Assembly: GCA_019358975.1 (NCBI GenBank)
Contig: JAHHIL010000046.1
Span: 1-46,913, forward strand
DNA length: 46,913 nucleotides
DNA from: Trichocoleus desertorum ATA4-8-CV12
GTDB taxonomy: Bacteria; Cyanobacteriota; Cyanobacteriia; FACHB-46
Direction: 5' to 3'
Of the stretch, positions 6,218-12,935 are shown one piece after another. A program made the translations under genes and the position numbers. The notes beneath the pieces are model-generated. The model saw only the letters and a list, made by a program, of their open reading frames with translations. It searched no databases and was not told the origin of the DNA. Numbering within the stretch: the first letter of the stretch is position 1; every line of letters starts with the position of its first letter.

Positions 6218-7444
6218 TTATATCTTTTCCTTGGGTGGTGGTGTGATGCTACCCCGATTCAACAACTCATCGATTTCTCGCAAGAGCCCAAAATCTTCTT
6301 TGGGTAAAGGCCGTCCTTCCGAGAAGTTTTCACCTATAGCAGGGTATTTCTCTAAGAAAGAGAAAGCTTGGCGAAATTGATGCGGGCCTGCTGCGACTGG
6401 AGCATCTAGGTGGCAGGGGATAACCTGATGGAAGTCCCATTTTGCAACCTGATCAGCCCACTTAAGAGTGATCTCAGGGGCGCGGTTGAGAATCAAGGTT
6501 TGTAGCACCGGAGCTACAAATAAACGCCCCCCGCCTCGCAGAGCCTCAAACGATCGCTGCCAATCCTCTTCCCACTTAAAGGGAAACAACCCAAAATAGG
6601 CTTTTTTCGAGCGATCGGGAGCGTTACGAGCTTCTCGCCATGCGTCTCCTAACTTCACGGCTTCTAAAGCACTGGGACGAAAATAGAACGCGAAGAGGGC
6701 AATGCGCTTCCATCCTTTACGTCGATTCTCTATGTTGTCCTCTACTACTTCAGAACCGCTGTCTTTGGCGTGAAAAAGTAAGGCATAGGGATCTAGCTGC
6801 ACGATCGCGGGTGGGTCTTCGGGCACCGACATCACAGAATCGGTGACGAGCAGAGTGCGCGATCGCTTGTGGAAACAGGCAATTTCTCCAAACGACCCCG
6901 CACCGAGGTCGATGTCTAGTACGGCATAATCTATCTCTTTGGCAAACGGTGCTTGGCTGCTATCTTCTGGAATGACGTGGGTGCGATTCATCGGGAACCC
7001 CAGCCAACTCAGCGGCAAGTTGATCGGGAAGCTCCACTGGTGAGGCGCAACGAAGACTTGGGCATTGGGAAAGCGTCTAGCGAAAGGCCCGACAAAAACT
7101 TTGTGCTCCAGACCAGAACTCGTGGGCAGGATGATGTATTTCACTTCACCATGCGCTGCGACCAGTTCCTCGACTAGGCGGATACATTCTGGTGTCGGTG
7201 CAACGGGTGCATAAACCAGCAATCCCCCAGCTTCTAGCCTGACGACAGTCATGCGGATAGGCACGATCACGTAAAAGACGCCTTGGATCTGGTCAAAGGT
7301 CCAAATCGTGTCTTTGACCACTTCTTGCCGCAGTGTGCGTCGCTTGCCAAATGGGTAGAGTGGCACGGCAGGCCAAAACCGCCACGTCCAGTCTTTCGGA
7401 TTGCTTGTCTCAATCGGTTGTCCTTCCATACTCTGTCCGCTCAT
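6218..7444 (-). CDS. DUF4336 domain-containing protein
   Basis: A roughly 408-residue soluble protein matching the DUF4336 family, common in cyanobacteria and plants. Visible are the TIWTFDQIQGVFYVIVPIRMTVVRL entry and LLVYAPVAPT. The central ILPTSSGLEHKVFVGPFARRFP and the GEIACFHKRSRTLLVTDSV segments have the sequence rhythm of a metallo-beta-lactamase fold (PTxxxEHK...GxxxxxHxxSxTLLVTD). Whether it binds metal or has hydrolase activity is unknown. Starts at GTG 7459, ATG 7444 or ATG 7429 are all possible; none has a strong ribosome site. Confidence 0.8.
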   Translation of the reverse strand: MSGQSMEGQPIETSNPKDWTWRFWPAVPLYPFGKRRTLRQEVVKDTIWTFDQIQGVFYVIVPIRMTVVRLEAGGLLVYAPVAPTPECIRLVEELVAAHGEVKYIILPTSSGLEHKVFVGPFARRFPNAQVFVAPHQWSFPINLPLSWLGFPMNRTHVIPEDSSQAPFAKEIDYAVLDIDLGAGSFGEIACFHKRSRTLLVTDSVMSVPEDPPAIVQLDPYALLFHAKDSGSEVVEDNIENRRKGWKRIALFAFYFRPSALEAVKLGDAWREARNAPDRSKKAYFGLFPFKWEEDWQRSFEALRGGGRLFVAPVLQTLILNRAPEITLKWADQVAKWDFHQVIPCHLDAPVAAGPHQFRQAFSFLEKYPAIGENFSEGRPLPKEDFGLLREIDELLNRGSITPPPKEKI

Positions 7445-7459
7445 CGTGGTTTTATCCAC

Positions 7460-7780
7460 GCCACGACCCCCATCTCGAAACCTTAATACTACTTAAGTCT
7501 AGCTTTTGGGATATTAAAAGATTTTTCGCTTTGTATCCACGATCGCTCACTTCATTAAGAATTGCACCTCACTCGAACCGCATCTTGGGCTGAGCTTGGG
7601 CAATTTTGATTTGCGATCGCTACTCCACAAATACTTCTTGAATGAGCCTAATTAACTCCGAGATTTGAGGCTGACTCAATAGGTCGAAAAGACAAAAGAT
7701 TAACTAAGCCTTTCTACCGAAACATGCTGTTCAGGGTTATTCTGCGGAAAGTCAGATTTATGGAAGGATCGAGTTCAGAG
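7460..7780. other. Spacer holding one copy of a 36-bp direct repeat
   Basis: About 320 bases without a supported gene. The main content is the repeat copy at 7613-7648, which on the minus strand ends an open stretch reading ...LIRLIQEVFVE-stop. The remainder is moderately AT-rich with no clear signals. Confidence 0.5.
7613..7648. repeat. Direct repeat flanking the restriction-modification module, copy 1
   Basis: A 36-base segment starting GCGATCGCTACTCC and containing ATACTTCTTGAAT recurs at 9819-9854 with two mismatches. On the minus strand both copies encode the tail LIQEVFxE followed by TAG, so they may be the 3' ends of two related, now lost genes. Confidence 0.75.
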
Positions 7781-8674
7781 TTAATCTAACCAATTCAAAT
7801 TGCGCCCAATAAGTAATTCGCTCATTTCGGCGTGATGGGTGTTTTTCATGGTCACAGGTTTAGTATCAAAACCAAACTTTTCAGCGAGTTCTAAAACTGC
7901 TTGCGTGTTGTCATAAGTCATCAAAAAGTCGCCTTCAAGCTTTGAGGCGATTCTAAACAACTCTTCGTGGTCAAGTTCGTTATAAGTATAAAGGCGCGCG
8001 CCCGCACGCTTTCCCTTTCCTACCGTGTAAGGCGGGTCAATGAAAAAGACCGCATCGGCCCGATTTGCATTCTCTACGAGTACCCGCATCCCGTCACCTT
8101 CAATGAATTGGATATTGTCTCGCTGATTTACAATATCGAGAATACGATTTCGTAATGTTTCAGGATACCAGCGTGATTTGATACCTTTCCCATTCTCACC
8201 GTGTTTTAGAATGCCAACGCCAGACGCTAAAATGCCACCATGATTGATACGATTTTTCAACAATGTGCGAAATGCTATTTCGAGTAAAGTCGGTTCAGGT
8301 TTACAGAGTACTGCATGTGCATTATCCGGTGTTAAATCGAAATTTATAATCCGGTCAGCGAGCCATTCGCCGCCACCTGGTTGTTGCAGAATTACACGCC
8401 AAACGGCTGCTACCTGCTCATCGCATTCCACCATTGTTACCCATTCAGCACGACCCTCAAAAGCTGTTGTCAAACTGGCAATGCCGCCGCCTGTGAAAGG
8501 CTCAATGAATTCGCGTGGTTTTTCTGGCTGGCTTTCAAGCCATCGGCGCAAACGAGGAACAAGCCACGTTTTGCCACCGGGGTACCGGAAGGGACTACGT
8601 TGCGGTACGCTCGCTACATTCACAACCTGGTTTGCAACTTTAGCCGTTACTTCGCCAAACAATGTAGATTGCAT
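7781..8674 (-). CDS. D12-class DNA adenine-N6 methyltransferase
   Basis: This 297-residue protein has the ordered motifs of D12 (Dam-like) adenine methylases: FRYPGGKTW near residue 29 (SAM-binding entry), FIEPFTGGGIAS at 56-67 (motif I) and IDPPYT at 212-217 (motif IV catalytic DPPY). It should transfer a methyl group from S-adenosylmethionine to adenine in a specific site. It overlaps the upstream restriction gene by one base (TAATG), so it is the protective partner of that endonuclease. The recognition sequence cannot be inferred. The internal KSRWYPETLRNRI segment is typical of phage and plasmid D12 enzymes. Confidence 0.9.
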   Translation of the reverse strand: MQSTLFGEVTAKVANQVVNVASVPQRSPFRYPGGKTWLVPRLRRWLESQPEKPREFIEPFTGGGIASLTTAFEGRAEWVTMVECDEQVAAVWRVILQQPGGGEWLADRIINFDLTPDNAHAVLCKPEPTLLEIAFRTLLKNRINHGGILASGVGILKHGENGKGIKSRWYPETLRNRILDIVNQRDNIQFIEGDGMRVLVENANRADAVFFIDPPYTVGKGKRAGARLYTYNELDHEELFRIASKLEGDFLMTYDNTQAVLELAEKFGFDTKPVTMKNTHHAEMSELLIGRNLNWLD

Positions 8675-9597
8675 TAAAATCCCTCCGTGTCGGCGTCTTG
8701 CTCTTCTATCAATCCAAGTGGAGGTTCTACATCTGGCGGCAACTCTGATGCTGGCGGTGTACCCATGATTTTGCCGCGCTTAATTCTTTCTGCCAATGTT
8801 TTTATAAATGTGTTCACGTCTCCAGCATCAGCAATGGTAATTGCACTAAGAGCCTCTCGAAAGCTCGTGTAATATGTCCTTGTAGATTCCAACCTGTAAC
8901 GATTATTTACTGCATCCAAGTTCAAATCGTAAGTCAGCCAAGCTATTTCTGCGCTGGCTGGGGAAACTTCGGGCAATGTTGGTAGCTGCTCAAAAAATGG
9001 AGTATGAACTGCAACCGCCATTTTCTTGCCCCAGTTATTGAGGATACCACCTTTGAAAATCAACTGCGGTGCGAGGCGTTTGCGCGACGAAGATAAATAA
9101 TCAGGTTTAGGATAGCCAAGTGCTGGCCATTCCATATTTGCGTGAGCCTCAGGGTCGCTCATATAGTGTTTGAAAGGCTTCTTTACATTCCCTGAAACAT
9201 AAACGGCTTGAACTTCGAGCGCACCAAAATCAGCGATTTCGTCGTTATCATCCAGTGCAACCAGAACCATATCAATGTTGCCCGCCGATTTTCCGTTTTT
9301 GTCATTCAATCGAACTTCGGTGAGTGCTAAATATCGCGTATTTGGCGGGAAGAAGAAGCGAGCTGCGTCGGTAACAATTAACATATCCTGCCGAAACCGC
9401 ACTGGGCAAGTGATAGCTGGTGCACCTTTATGGGAAACGGTGCAAACCCCTAACGGATCAGTCTTGCTGTCTTTGGTGCAGTTTAACCCGGACGAGTTAT
9501 GAAACGGGCACAATCTTCCCTCGCGGTGTCTTACAGCTTCCAGCGACATATCTGTAGCGTTATAACCAAAAACTTCGACAAGAGGATTTGTAGGCAT
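8674..9597 (-). CDS. NotI-family type II restriction endonuclease
   Basis: This roughly 307-residue protein (from ATG at 9597) resembles NotI. It shows NPLVEVFGY, then CPFHN...C near TKDS, DPLGVC and ITCPVRFRQD. The four cysteines at 30, 40, 52 and 64 fit the iron-binding Cys4 site known in NotI. Downstream, SLTEVRLND-like (here ALTEVRLND) and GNIDMVLVALDD...DFGALEVQAVYVSG provide the acidic PD-(D/E)xK core (D...ExQ). It would cut DNA at a palindromic site protected by the overlapping adenine methylase. NotI itself cuts GCGGCCGC, but an adenine methylase partner implies an A-containing site here. An upstream TTG at 9642 is an alternative start. Confidence 0.88.
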   Translation of the reverse strand: MPTNPLVEVFGYNATDMSLEAVRHREGRLCPFHNSSGLNCTKDSKTDPLGVCTVSHKGAPAITCPVRFRQDMLIVTDAARFFFPPNTRYLALTEVRLNDKNGKSAGNIDMVLVALDDNDEIADFGALEVQAVYVSGNVKKPFKHYMSDPEAHANMEWPALGYPKPDYLSSSRKRLAPQLIFKGGILNNWGKKMAVAVHTPFFEQLPTLPEVSPASAEIAWLTYDLNLDAVNNRYRLESTRTYYTSFREALSAITIADAGDVNTFIKTLAERIKRGKIMGTPPASELPPDVEPPLGLIEEQDADTEGF

Positions 9598-9818
9598 AAG
9601 ATTAAGGATACATCCTTCAACCGACCAACATCCACACAACAAGGCGCTGCACCCGATCGCCTACAGTTTCGCGCCCTTCGCTTTTCCTCGCTTCCTCCGC
9701 TACGCTTCCTCCAGTGGGTGAACTTGGTCGTTACCTTACTTCATTCCCATTTTGAAACTGTACAACGGGTTCGTTTCCCAGTTGAGAGTATGAATTCACT
9801 TAGAGATACTAGGATAGC

Positions 9819-9854
9819 GCGATCGCTACTCCAAAAATACTTCTTGAATTAGCC
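9819..9854. repeat. Direct repeat flanking the restriction-modification module, copy 2
   Basis: Second copy of the 36-base repeat seen at 7613-7648, about 2.2 kb away and in the same orientation, with two base differences. Read on the minus strand it ends LTGLIQEVFLE-TAG. Similarity fades on both sides. Confidence 0.75.
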
Positions 9855-9899
9855 CAGTTAGTGCTGGGACGACTGGCAAAAGCAGAGTGAGATTAGATA

Positions 9900-10322
9900 G
9901 TGAAAATAAACATTTGTGATGAAATCAATGCTGCTCGTGATTGTGGAGTTACACACTGTCACATTATCGAAGTAGAGCCGACGCCTCTCACTGAAATTGT
10001 TCCAAAATTCGGATTGGTTTTTACGCCTGACACATACCAGGAGATTAGTAAAGCTCAAGCAGAGGCAGTTGCTAAACGTGTTCTTCATCGTGACCTAGCA
10101 TATGATGCAGAAATCATGACTGAGACAGAAGCACAAGCATTAGTAAACCAGTTTCTTGACTGTTTTGATGAAGAAAATGCTGAGTACTACACCAATGGTG
10201 ACTACTATTCTGAGGAGGTCAGTCACGGTTGGAATCCAGCTACAGCCGCGACATTTGATACAGGAATTCTTGTCATTGGCAAATCACGAGTAGGATGTCT
10301 TTGGGTGGAAGATGAGGATTAG
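9900..10322 (+). CDS. Conserved-looking acidic hypothetical protein
   Basis: A 140-residue soluble, acidic protein starting at GTG. I do not recognise a named family. It has a middle helix rich in Ala/Glu (YQEISKAQAEAVAKRVLHRDLAY) and a Glu/Asp/Tyr-rich region (DEENAEYYTNGDYYSEEV). The end FDTGILVIGKSRVGCLWVEDED recalls small cyanobacterial proteins ending in a G-x-x-WVEDED strand. It lies just outside the restriction-modification repeats. An immunity or antitoxin-like role would be a guess only. Confidence 0.6.
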   Translation: MKINICDEINAARDCGVTHCHIIEVEPTPLTEIVPKFGLVFTPDTYQEISKAQAEAVAKRVLHRDLAYDAEIMTETEAQALVNQFLDCFDEENAEYYTNGDYYSEEVSHGWNPATAATFDTGILVIGKSRVGCLWVEDED

Positions 10323-10542
10323 ATTTACATCTCAGTTCGTGCTTATTGAGTGCAGGCGGTTTTGCAGTACAACAACTTTGCTGCAGCGGATTGACCGAAG
10401 CTGCTTGGATAAGATGTAAAGGTATTGGCAACCACTGATCAGAACGATGGCTGACTGCGTTTCTGAATTGAGGCTGCGTGACGAGGTTATCGTTCAGGTG
10501 TGAATGTTAAACTCTACTCAAAAACCTAGGAGAGCGATCGCC

Positions 10543-10740
10543 GTGGCTTCTATCACGATTGACCTTTCAGACAGCCAATTGCAAAAGCTACAAGACTTAG
10601 CAACCGTGCATGGAATTGCCCTTGAAGTTCTAGTGAAGGCAAGCTTGGAAGATTGGCTAAATTCTCAAAAGAGCGAATTTGTTGACGCAGCCAACTATGT
10701 GCTGACAAAGAATGCTGAACTGTATCAGCGCTTAGCATAA
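10543..10740 (+). CDS. Antitoxin-like protein (partner of a Doc-type toxin)
   Basis: A 65-residue protein from GTG 10543 (an ATG at 10504 in the same frame is an alternative). It reads ITIDLSDSQLQKLQDLA, VLVKASLEDWL and a closing YVLTKNAELYQRLA. This fits small cyanobacterial antitoxins whose C-terminal YVLxKNxELYxRLA motif is usually followed directly by a Fic/Doc-family toxin beginning MRxLTLxEVLELH. An AGGAG lies ten bases before the GTG. The next gene overlaps as TAATG but is only a stub, so this is probably an orphan antitoxin. Confidence 0.7.
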   Translation: MASITIDLSDSQLQKLQDLATVHGIALEVLVKASLEDWLNSQKSEFVDAANYVLTKNAELYQRLA

Positions 10741-10808
10741 TGCGTTTTCTGACGTTAATCGAGGCGTTTGTAGAGTGGTTACAGCGGCGTACAACGCCTC
10801 ATCAATAG
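10740..10808 (+). pseudogene. Stub of a Doc-type toxin gene
   Basis: Starting at an ATG that overlaps the antitoxin stop, the frame reads MRFLTLIE and then diverges to a stop after 22 codons. MRFLTLxE is the usual beginning of death-on-curing toxins in this genetic arrangement. The Fic-like core (HPFxDGNKR) is absent here and in the following bases. A deletion or insertion appears to have removed the toxin. Confidence 0.5.
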
Positions 10809-10822
10809 CTCTTGATAGTGAA

Positions 10823-11122
10823 TTACTTAAAGAAACCACCAAAGTTAAATTGCAACACACCCAAAATGCTGGTGATGCTGAGGACAGAGAGAATGCTTCC
10901 GGCACTGAAACAACCCAGGATACTACCCGCACTTCCTACACTCAAAATACTGCCAGTGCTGCCAATACTTAAAATGCTTCCAGCACTGCCAATGCTCAAA
11001 ATGCTTCCGCTACTGGCAATGCTGAGAATACTGCGGTGACTGGCCCAGCTTAAAACACTATGGTCTGCAAGTGGCTCAGGTTCACCATTATTTGTCTCTT
11101 TAATAGCGTCTACTTGAGGCAT
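10823..11122 (-). CDS. Small nonapeptide-repeat protein (GSILSIGSA repeats)
   Basis: A 99-residue protein with a short acidic N-terminus (MPQVDAIKETNNGEPEP), then SVLSWASHRSILSIASS, then about five to six repeats of nine residues with consensus GSILS(I/V)GS(A/T), ending in a hydrophobic GVLQFNFGGFF tail. The spacing of G, S and I/L suggests a beta-solenoid or stacked short strands with Ser/Gly turns and an aliphatic core. From memory, small proteins with VLSxGSxGSxLS repeats occur in actinobacteria, with unknown function. The reversed frame on the plus strand is an artefact of the repeat. No strong ribosome site precedes the ATG at 11120-11122. Confidence 0.65.
   Translation of the reverse strand: MPQVDAIKETNNGEPEPLADHSVLSWASHRSILSIASSGSILSIGSAGSILSIGSTGSILSVGSAGSILGCFSAGSILSVLSITSILGVLQFNFGGFFK
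10866..11034. repeat. 27-bp imperfect tandem repeats
   Basis: DNA units resembling AAAATGCTTCCAGCACTGCC, spaced by 27 bases, encode the GSILSIGSA nonapeptides on the minus strand. Copies differ at several positions, mostly at codon third bases, so the array is not a very recent expansion. Confidence 0.7.
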
Positions 11123-11169
11123 GGACGGATTCTAGCACAGAGTATTAGCTCAACTGTGGGATATCAGTG

Positions 11170-11210
11170 GAGCGATCGCTAGGCTTTAACTCCAGGCGAT
11201 CGCTCTTTCA
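11170..11210. terminator. HIP1-pair hairpin, possible terminator
   Basis: GAGCGATCGC (11170-11179) pairs exactly with GCGATCGCTC (11196-11205) around a 16-base loop. It lies just past the end of the minus-strand SnoaL-like gene and upstream of the repeat protein gene. The T-rich side (TTTC) follows on the plus strand only, so terminator function for the minus-strand gene is uncertain. Confidence 0.35.
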
Positions 11211-11225
11211 CCTCATTTGGAGAAA

Positions 11226-11594
11226 CTAGGAACCGTAATAAAACCGTTCGTGGACAACTTTGCCGTCTTGCCACTTCTGTACTGAAACTTGGTCGTAGGT
11301 GCGTTTGCCCCAATCTTGGTGGGTGTAGTCCGCAGACCACTCAGAGATGATCACATCTTCACCAAAGGCCACGCTCTTTAGGGCAATCCCTCGGAACTCC
11401 GTAATCTTGGCAAAAAAGTCTAGCTCTCTTTCGCGGTTAGCATCCTTGCCCACTGTCGCTGGGTTCTCGTTTTCTTGCATCACCACATTCTCGCCATAGT
11501 ATTTCTCAAAGGCTTCCATTGCCTTCCCTTGTAGAACGAGATCATGGATGTCTGCGAAAGCTGCTTTGAGATCGGTGTTAAGAGCAGTACTCAT
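11226..11594 (-). CDS. SnoaL-like / NTF2-fold protein
   Basis: A 122-residue protein with the pattern of the SnoaL-like branch of the NTF2 fold. There is a helix LKAAFADIHDLVLQGKAMEAFEKYY, then GENVVMQENENPATVGKDANRERELDFF, followed by strands ending in SEWSADYTHQDWGKRTYDQVSVQKWQDGKVVHERFYY. Such proteins bind small molecules in a cone-shaped pocket; some are isomerases or cyclases, most are uncharacterised. An AGGAG lies eight bases before the ATG. It is transcribed divergently from a MarR regulator, with palindromes between them, so it is the likely target of that regulator. Confidence 0.85.
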   Translation of the reverse strand: MSTALNTDLKAAFADIHDLVLQGKAMEAFEKYYGENVVMQENENPATVGKDANRERELDFFAKITEFRGIALKSVAFGEDVIISEWSADYTHQDWGKRTYDQVSVQKWQDGKVVHERFYYGS

Positions 11595-11700
11595 GGTTGT
11601 AACTCCTGTAATTGTGAGGATGGAAATGAAGAGGGATAGCCTACGTAGAATGCTCTGCGCCTTGGGCTATGGAAGTAAATATTTTTAGTTTCAGTTGAAA

Positions 11701-11733
11701 TAGTTGCGTTTTTGTTTATTGCATTTGCAACTA
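11701..11733. promoter_or_regulatory. Inverted repeat, possible MarR operator 1
   Basis: TAGTTGC at 11701-11707 and GCAACTA at 11727-11733 are perfect inverted repeats with a 19-base AT-rich spacer. The same half-site occurs in the neighbouring palindrome at 11753-11770. It lies between the divergent SnoaL and MarR genes. Just upstream, TTTCAGTTGAAA (11689-11700) is a further near-palindrome. Confidence 0.5.
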
Positions 11734-11752
11734 AATTCAAGATAACATCGTT

Positions 11753-11770
11753 TAGTTGAAAGTGCAACTA
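11753..11770. promoter_or_regulatory. 18-bp palindrome, probable MarR operator 2
   Basis: TAGTTG-AAAGTG-CAACTA is an 18-base inverted repeat located 20 bases before the MarR start. Length and symmetry fit a MarR dimer site, which suggests autoregulation and control of the divergent SnoaL-like gene. Confidence 0.6.
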
Positions 11771-11790
11771 CTTTCTTGGATACTAGAGGT

Positions 11791-12249
11791 ATGAGTACTC
11801 CACCTAAGCTTGATAATTTACGCAACTCTCTGTGGCGGCTGTTTCTAACCGCCCACGTTAAATTGCTCGATCGTCTGGAAGAAAAAATGGCTGAGGCAGG
11901 TCTGCCCTCTGTGGAATGGTATGACGTGATTTACACGCTCAAAGAAGCACCGGAACATCGCTTGCGTCTGAGTGAACTGGCAGACCGGGTACTGTTGAGT
12001 CGTAGCAACTTGACTCGCTTGGTCGATCGCTTGGAGAAAGCTGGCTTGTTGCGCCGCCAACCTTGCCCTAGCGATCGCCGAGGCACATTTGCTGTCCTGA
12101 CCGAAGCAGGATTAGCAATGCAGCAGAAAATGTGGCCCATTTATGCCGAAGGAATTGCTGAGTATTTTGGCGCTTATATGGATGACGAAACGGCCACTGC
12201 CATGAAGCAATCCTTTCAACAAATGTTGGCCGCTCTAGAACAACATTAA
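11791..12249 (+). CDS. MarR family transcriptional regulator
   Basis: A 152-residue winged-helix regulator. Visible are LPSVEWYDVIYTLKEAPEHRLRLSELADRVLLSRSNLTRLVDRLEKAGLLRR, the MarR helix-turn-helix, and the wing PSDRRGTFAVLTEAG with the conserved DRR. Terminal helices would form the dimer. A TTG at 11776 is in frame, but the ATG at 11791 gives the usual N-terminus. It is divergent from the SnoaL-like gene and has matching palindromes in front. MarR proteins normally repress and release DNA on binding a phenolic ligand or on oxidation; cysteine 91 (RRQPCPSD) is the only cysteine visible. Confidence 0.9.
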   Translation: MSTPPKLDNLRNSLWRLFLTAHVKLLDRLEEKMAEAGLPSVEWYDVIYTLKEAPEHRLRLSELADRVLLSRSNLTRLVDRLEKAGLLRRQPCPSDRRGTFAVLTEAGLAMQQKMWPIYAEGIAEYFGAYMDDETATAMKQSFQQMLAALEQH

Positions 12250-12257
12250 AAAGTAAG

Positions 12258-12440
12258 GTCTACGCTGAAGTTGAGATTCCTGAATATTGGGTCGTAAACC
12301 TTAAAAAGAGGCAACTGATCGTATTTCGCGATCCCCAGGATGATGAATATGCGTCAAAGTCTACCCTCACCGACGGTGCGATTCATCCAGTTAGCTTTCC
12401 AGATGTGGCAGTGCAAGTAAGTTCTATTGTGAGTAAATAA
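12258..12440 (+). pseudogene. C-terminal fragment of a Uma2 family nuclease
   Basis: Immediately after the MarR stop, a frame without a start codon reads VYAEVEIPEYWVVNLKKRQLIVFRDP and ends SFPDVAVQVSSIVSK-stop. The phrase Y-x-E-x-x-IPEYWVVNL is the hallmark of the last third of Uma2 (DUF820) proteins. The N-terminal part, including the PD motif, is missing, so this is a gene relic. Confidence 0.75.
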
Positions 12441-12507
12441 CTGCGATCGCTCCTCCTCAGTTTTGGCCAAGTGCGATCGCTTAAGCTGATTAGAAGGATT
12501 ATCTCGA

Positions 12508-12597
12508 TTGGGCCGATTGCTGGTTGTAGCTCATACCGATCGAGGCGATCGCATCCTTATCATCAGTGCACGCGCGACATACAAGAGTAGAGATTTT
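12508..12597 (+). pseudogene. C-terminal relic of a BrnT-type toxin
   Basis: The frame GRLLVVAHTDRGDRILIISARAT is the typical end of BrnT toxins (RLLVVAHTxRGxxIRIISARxAT). The front two thirds of the toxin are absent. The relic continues without a stop into the antitoxin frame downstream, so the ordinary toxin stop codon has been lost as well. Confidence 0.7.
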
Positions 12598-12819
12598 ATG
12601 AGGAAGGAAACTGACCACGAACTAGAAGATGAGTTGCGCCCTGAATACGATTTTTCTCAGCTTCAGGGAGGTGTACGAGGTAAATATGCAGAGCGGTATC
12701 AAGCAGGGACTAATTTGGTATTGCTAGATCCTGATGTTGCTCAGGCATTCCCCACTTCTGAGGCAGTTAACGAAGCGTTGCGGCTACTCATTCAAATTGC
12801 TCAGCGTCAAAGCACTTAG
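12598..12819 (+). CDS. Antitoxin of a BrnT-associated toxin-antitoxin pair
   Basis: A 73-residue protein beginning MRKETDHELEDELRPEYDFSQL, then GGVRGKYAERYQAGTNLVLLDPDVAQAFPTSEAVNEALRLL. This matches a common cyanobacterial antitoxin that follows BrnT genes. The acidic N-terminus and GVRGKYxxRYxxGTNLVxLxPDVAxxFP core are characteristic. Because the toxin remnant upstream reads straight into this frame, a longer fusion from TTG 12508 is possible, but the ATG at 12598 is the expected start. With the toxin destroyed, the antitoxin is an orphan. Confidence 0.8.
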   Translation: MRKETDHELEDELRPEYDFSQLQGGVRGKYAERYQAGTNLVLLDPDVAQAFPTSEAVNEALRLLIQIAQRQST

Positions 12820-12935
12820 TTTTTTGAGATAAGCGATCGCGCCCCTCAATTTATAAAAACTCCCCAGATACCGAGCAGGGTTGGTAATCTAGAGCTTACT
12901 GGATCATTATTTAAGAACCATCGCTCTGTATTGCT

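Follow-up and report, generated by a model that had tools for sequence, protein, structure and literature searches.

Bacterial amyloid signaling motifs, which are reported mainly from filamentous bacteria, are short motifs of aliphatic residues and glycine. Collagen-like Gly-X-Y repeats (PF01391) are built on a strict period of three residues, one of which must be small. The RTX nonapeptide repeats, which form a calcium beta-roll, have a period of nine residues with glycine at the presumed turn, and passages of PMC3034196 describe them as glycine- and aspartate-rich and calcium-binding. Passages of PMC9062424 describe His-Xaa-Ser motifs as well as HxsB and HxsC; the serine-triplet repeat that is the subject of this study does not appear in those passages. 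This repeat makes up most of a protein of 99 residues encoded on the minus strand of the window, that is, the whole stretch of 46,913 nucleotides from Trichocoleus desertorum ATA4-8-CV12 that was analyzed here (Table 1).

The serine-triplet protein shares single traits with these systems. Like the collagen-like repeats, it has a strict period of three with a small residue required at one position; however, this residue is serine rather than glycine and proline is almost absent. Membership in the collagen-like group was rejected on this ground and because Pfam gave only below-cut-off matches for the window protein, none of them collagen; Pfam on 25 relatives returned one weak Collagen match (E 5.6e-4). 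The nine-residue period and the glycine at the presumed turn recall RTX repeats, whereas the array is nearly uncharged: in the array regions of 91 relatives (5074 residues) there are 77 charged residues (K, R, D, E) and one proline, and the window protein has no aspartate after residue 20. RTX membership was likewise rejected, since so few charged residues do not fit Asp-containing calcium-binding turns. With HxsA4, to judge from its name, the protein has in common a serine in a three-residue repeat, but histidine is not the repeated residue. HxsA4 (NF038313) was the sole NCBIfam match of the window protein (E 1.9e-5, residues 8-67), and HxsA-type membership was rejected because the score of 25.5 bits falls short of the 55-bit cut-off and HxsB (TIGR03978) exceeded its cut-off in none of 25 carrier genomes (0/15 and 0/10); HxsA4 itself was over its cut-off in none of 15 genomes. 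Weak HxsB-profile matches were obtained in 18 carrier genomes (11/15 and 7/10), yet 12 of 14 control genomes gave such matches too, as general radical-SAM enzymes would. The bacterial amyloid signaling motifs differ in that no NLR or effector family recurs beside the repeat gene and in that the protein has one long array.

The window protein reached none of the curated family cut-offs of Pfam, NCBIfam, PHROG and PADLOC, and PHROGs and PADLOC returned nothing for it at E<=0.1. A literature search with the repeat motif strings gave, judged by titles, no biological paper on such a protein, the matches being presumably chance letter strings, and among the matches listed no title or abstract start dealt with a serine-triplet repeat. 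The serine-triplet repeat family is so far unnamed in the protein-family libraries searched. These outcomes agree with an earlier description of the locus made from its letters alone (hereafter the sequence-only reading), which knew of no described function.

That reading had placed a 99-residue ORF on the minus strand, which ORF reading confirmed, and had described it as five to six near-identical nonapeptides encoded by 27-bp units. Five GS[IV]L[SG] starts at a spacing of nine residues, the first at residue 39 and preceded by an HRSILSIAS unit, together with a 27-bp array of 3.5 copies, bear out this description in part; however, the base period is three residues, x-x-Ser, and the nonapeptide is composed of three triplets (ILS-IGS-AGS). 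Read in triplets from residue 20, the array runs DHS VLS WAS HRS ILS IAS SGS ILS IGS AGS ILS IGS TGS and continues ILS VGS AGS ILG CFS AGS ILS VLS ITS. Its longest unbroken run of serine at every third residue is 16, which was equalled in none of 20000 shuffles of the same protein. A comparison of synonymous and nonsynonymous differences between the repeats, which the sequence-only reading had proposed, gave a pS of 0.93 (synonymous sites saturated) and a pN of 0.16 (few replacements) among four units of the window protein, indicating that the array is not a recent duplication.

Table 1. Features of the serine-triplet repeat gene and its leader (positions in the window).
Feature	Position	Strand	Basis or remark
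Serine-triplet repeat protein ORF, 99 aa	10823..11122	-	Stop codon 10823-10825; ORF reading and homologues
Serine-triplet array, residues 20-85	10868..11065	-	Ser at 21/22 third positions; Gly at residue 70
27-bp tandem repeat at DNA level, 3.5 copies, 77% matches	10940..11034	-	Tandem Repeats Finder
Hydrophobic C-terminal tail, residues 86-99	10826..10867	-	Within predicted helix 67-97 (block pLDDT ~51-75)
Residues 1-12 (MPQVDAIKETNN), part of the "acidic head"	11087..11122	-	Upstream of start codon in two sister species; three-congener alignment
Upstream leader; two GCGATCGC octamers	11123..11208	.	Conserved to 11208 with one sister, to ~11182 with the other

The start of the gene differs from that of its closest relatives. 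An alignment of three congeners shows that, in both sister species, an ATG lies immediately 5' of a conserved GEPEP/GEHEP stretch, with a purine-rich stretch upstream, and that the repeat protein of the sister species has ~88 aa. The window is one base shorter than both sisters in a G run at the normal start codon (11085-11092, minus strand), which may reflect either a real deletion or a sequencing error. The counterpart of the sister start ATG (11088-11086) is out of frame in the window, whose ORF begins instead at an ATG farther upstream. One sister has this farther ATG too, but there it starts just a short frame, closed by a TGA that overlaps the start of the gene; in the other sister the same position is ATA. 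Because the one-base difference from both sisters puts the normal ATG out of frame, residues 1-12 of the window protein are probably leader sequence fused in frame, and translation here may rely on the upstream in-frame ATG. The "acidic head" of the sequence-only reading is accordingly doubtful, since part of it is probably 5' leader and the heads of the relatives (up to 28 residues before the array) are net negative in only 9 of 91, as opposed to net positive in 59 and zero in 23. A promoter scan of 10300-11700 gave no promoter-like site where 1.3 would be expected by chance, an uninformative outcome.

The gene had also been assigned to an accessory zone. Within the genus this assignment does not hold, as all three genomes carry one copy each and both sisters have the gene in the same order and orientation to a DUF4336 gene (window 6218-7459), at a distance of ~2.4 kb (G040), 3.4 kb (window) or 4.3 kb (G025). 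The variable part is the stretch between the two genes, which in the window holds a restriction module: a NotI-like restriction endonuclease (7781-9642, minus strand; Pfam NotI, E 3.6e-56) adjoins a D12-class adenine methyltransferase, the best PADLOC match of which is PD-Lambda-5_B (E 9.8e-40). The region of these two genes (7736-10370) had no nucleotide match within the fetched 18-kb sister regions. As far as these regions go, the repeat gene is likely a stable resident and the restriction module a newcomer. A small gene of 78 aa stands beside the repeat gene on the plus strand (10504-10740); the block that contains it (10371-10764) is 92% identical and nearby in one congener and unmatched in the fetched region of the other, and its product has no Pfam or NCBIfam family over the cut-off and only weak PHROG matches. 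The toxin-antitoxin relics mentioned in the same reading are plausible, because an ORF at 12508-12819 (plus strand) begins with a fragment matching the C-terminus of BrnT-like toxins (below the cut-off, profile positions 51-73) and closes with a weak VapB-like match; this ORF is probably such a relic.

Relatives of the repeat protein extend far beyond the genus. In a search of 388 genomes of the class, which its named relatives mark as cyanobacterial, 38 (own genome counted) had relatives at E<1e-12, with a single strong match in 37 and two in one (G037). At E<=0.01 the number rises to 56, and the 18 additional genomes (E 7e-5 to 0.01, mostly low identity) were left out of the count, although one candidate among them (G257, 54% over 41 residues) is possibly a genuine relative. 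A pattern-limited scan of the genomes of 84,980 species yielded 543 pattern matches, from which 161 relatives were confirmed and 80 loci kept; the confirmed relatives belong to cyanobacteria, Chloroflexota, Actinomycetota, Dormibacteria-type MAGs and a few outliers, for example one Nitrospirae MAG. Profile searches found a relative in at least 21 of 296 Actinomycetota genomes and at least 17 of 251 Chloroflexota genomes (seed genomes included), both being minimum figures because no more than 15 or 20 candidates were scored per genome; among 148 Nitrospirota genomes the seed genome alone matched. Of seven carrier genomes scanned with the pattern, four had one match each and three had none. An origin from phages, plasmids or viruses was rejected, because the plasmids and phages searched contained no match to the repeat protein and none of nine pattern matches in viral contigs was confirmed. 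A lack of homologues on this strand would have refuted the sequence-only reading; the minus-strand frame has them in three phyla. As judged from these comparisons of sequence, the repeat protein is a real, small and strongly conserved protein of cyanobacteria, Chloroflexota and Actinomycetota.

The neighborhood of the repeat gene was compared across the 80 loci. Clustering of 573 neighbor ORFs by blastp revealed mostly clade-limited synteny and a few small common-family groups in 3-5 loci. Of the 80 loci, 69 contributed their 135 nearest ORFs to a Pfam tally that comprised 116 families, each present in at most four ORFs among the best 25 of the 116; the 11 loci dropped from the tally as close relatives include three (L037, L038, and L039) that are not duplicates of kept loci, and the neighbor ORFs came from a greedy ORF caller whose frames may be wrong in G+C-rich contigs. 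A conserved partner gene was thus rejected, the neighbors being clade-limited and no Pfam family occurring in more than four of the nearest ORFs. A TIR domain was found in two of the 135 neighbor ORFs. In nine loci (L043, L044, L045, L046, L048, L049, L050, L051, and L055), all from the Nodosilinea group or allied filamentous cyanobacteria, recF is located 68-234 bases upstream of the repeat gene on the same strand.

Purifying selection on the gene is strong. The window gives dN/dS values of 0.12 and 0.056 against its two congeners, which compared with each other give 0.119 (genus range 0.056-0.121); for 15 Nodosilinea-clade sequences, compared in 105 pairs, dN/dS has a median of 0.047 and reaches 0.17 at most, with a median dS of 0.50. 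The unit number is identical in all 15 sequences of this clade, with neither gain nor loss. Serine codons of the AGY and TCN classes are both present in every Ser column listed, which argues that the residue, rather than the DNA, is conserved.

The architecture of the array was examined in the 91 relatives, which derive from 109 phmmer relatives after removal of those identical after trimming and of one with an unreadable residue. Together with the window protein (92 in all), the longest run of serine at every third residue is 14-30 in 87 proteins, 12 in one and at most 8 in four, and 84 have runs of at least 15 consecutive Ser triplets. The 28 exceptions in Ser columns (alignment columns 41-98 with at least 80% Ser) are Cys in 10, Gly in 9, Ala in 2 and other residues in 7 cases; as these are mostly Cys, Gly or Ala, smallness at the third position seems to matter. 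The other columns are mainly Gly, Ile, Leu, Ala, Val, Phe, and Thr. When 525 units are phased by nine residues, Gly is commonest at positions 1 and 7 and aliphatic residues at positions 3, 4, and 6; however, the hydropathy moment is 1.18 at 120 degrees as against 0.16 at 180 and 0.19 at 100, so that the strongest period tested is three residues. Mean hydropathy in nine-residue blocks from residue 23 onward (42 sequences) is -0.21, 1.12, 1.27, 1.25, 1.38, 1.49, 1.49, and 1.11; it thus rises from 1.12 at residues 32-40 to 1.49 at residues 68-85 and goes down to 1.11 at residues 86-94, past the array.

The C-terminal end of the window protein is hydrophobic, as had been noticed from the sequence, and the usual extra feature in relatives is a basic tail. 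Over the final 12 residues the net charge is positive in 80 of the 91 relatives, zero in 7 and negative in 4; the corresponding numbers for 360 neighbor ORFs of more than 200 aa, used for comparison, are 150, 92, and 118. A separate transmembrane-like hydrophobic segment follows the array in 14 of the 91, all under Actinomycetota-lineage record titles, and the flanking charges of these segments are more positive on the C-side (C-side-in) in nine, on the N-side in three and equal in two. Insertion sums over 19 residues, computed on an approximate hydrophobicity scale, are below zero in 3 of 91 and between 0 and 2 in 26, with a best value of +1.37 for the window protein; because only these three fall below zero, most relatives are, by hydropathy alone, not clear transmembrane proteins. 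Signal-peptide-like heads are rare, a hydrophobic 12-residue window above 1.6 being present in 5 of 84 heads (cut to at most 28 residues). In one Chloroflexota frame (L150) the array follows a stretch of ~140 residues that appears helical by eye and has no Pfam match over the cut-off, a possible natural fusion.

Structure prediction left the array unfolded. The AlphaFold2 model of the window protein (42 sequences) has a mean pLDDT of 53.6, with residues 21-55 below 50 and a helix at residues 67-97 of low to moderate confidence; that of an actinobacterial relative, L101 (25 sequences), has a mean pLDDT of 52.5, with residues 4-71 below 50 and a C-terminal helix at residues 85-114 (block pLDDT 74-82). 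Neither of these low-confidence models contains a strand. A sequence search of solved structures returned nine sequences at E up to 10, the best of which (E 3.6e-4) were kinesin fusion constructs; none is a relevant relative, and the matches are probably to serine/glycine-rich linkers. The beta-solenoid that the sequence-only reading had suggested is therefore unsupported, although a strandless model of low confidence is no refutation either; its proposal that the protein assembles with itself is a reasonable inference.

The explanation that we tentatively prefer, as a possibility and no firmer than that, is that the repeat protein is a membrane-associated, self-packing structural peptide. It is suggested by the strict small residue, by an array with hardly any charge or proline, by a unit number that is fixed within the lineages examined and by a C-terminus that is both hydrophobic and basic. 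The small residue at each third position would let neighboring turns or chains pack closely, copies would self-associate into a rod or sheet, and the C-terminus would hold the assembly at the membrane, for which the minority of 14 relatives would use their separate transmembrane-like segment instead. Because the repeat gene stands alone, the assembly would be a homo-oligomer rather than part of an operon-encoded machine. Against this explanation count the array left unfolded by AlphaFold2, the insertion sums, by which most relatives are not clear transmembrane proteins, the drop in hydropathy after the array and the ambiguous topology of the hydrophobic segments. Membrane attachment would be its weakest step for the cyanobacterial members, and the basic heads could equally be compatible with contact to nucleic acid. 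An unlikely alternative in the light of the same data is a soluble beta-solenoid, beta-sheet rod or amyloid-like fibre, in which SILSI of each nonapeptide would form a short strand and GSAG the turn, the units stacking inside one chain or from chain to chain. The nine-residue phasing of the 525 units, with its glycines at positions 1 and 7 and aliphatic residues at 3, 4, and 6, the single proline in 5074 residues and a unit register that is fixed within lineages all accord with such stacking, but the three-residue period dominates the hydropathy moment and both AlphaFold2 models, at low confidence, are strandless. Moreover, with aliphatic residues at positions 3 and 4 alike, both faces of the notional strand would be hydrophobic, and for this reason a self-packing or membrane-facing array would fit better than a soluble solenoid.

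The hydrophobic C-terminal part of the array, the basic tail and the small stand-alone gene would also suit a membrane-active peptide, whose Ser-lined hydrophobic segments oligomerise to a pore or disturb the membrane in the manner of a stress peptide or toxin. We consider this quite improbable, since the nearest neighbors show no recurring antitoxin or regulator family (best 25 of 116 families), the gene is usually a single, strongly constrained chromosomal copy (37 of 38 genomes with a single strong match), the insertion sums are mostly unfavorable and the array exceeds a single membrane span in length. The serines could instead be a substrate of post-translational modification resembling HxsA (His-Xaa-Ser), by an enzyme encoded elsewhere, as the HxsA4 profile being the sole NCBIfam match and the weak HxsB-profile matches in 18 of 25 carriers might suggest. 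This possibility is very slight: the latter matches occur also in 12 of 14 controls, the HxsA4 score is far under its cut-off, HxsB exceeds its own in none of the 25 carriers, no enzyme family recurs among the nearest neighbors (best 25 of 116 families), and the tolerated replacement of Ser by Gly or Ala fits smallness better than a reactive hydroxyl. It is scarcely credible that an RNA or a product of the opposite strand is what functions, with the peptide as a by-product. Of 42 distinct sequences (the window among them, from loci up to L061), 30 keep a particular opposite-strand frame open across the array, probably as a by-product of the codon pattern, but this frame is broken in the other 12, whereas none of the 42 interrupts the minus-strand frame (partly by construction, as they were found through that frame); an Rfam scan of 9800-12900 found no RNA family, and dN/dS on the minus strand is far below 1. 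The low dN/dS, the mixed serine codons and the conservation of units at the residue level indicate that the minus-strand frame is kept as a protein.

Returning to the self-packing, membrane-associated peptide, it is conceivable but doubtful that the (x-x-Ser)n array represents an undescribed protein architecture, in which a chain with scarcely any proline or charge and a mandatory small residue at each third position packs into a homopolymer or bundle at the membrane, encoded by a long-kept stand-alone gene in three phyla. A strict and simple sequence rule is maintained at a dN/dS of ~0.05 in the Nodosilinea clade and is found in three phyla, yet it is unnamed in the libraries searched and left unfolded by AlphaFold2. 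The serine-triplet protein would be either a new mode of self-assembly for a short peptide, with a bearing on membrane organization and materials, or a widespread and overlooked small component of the cell.
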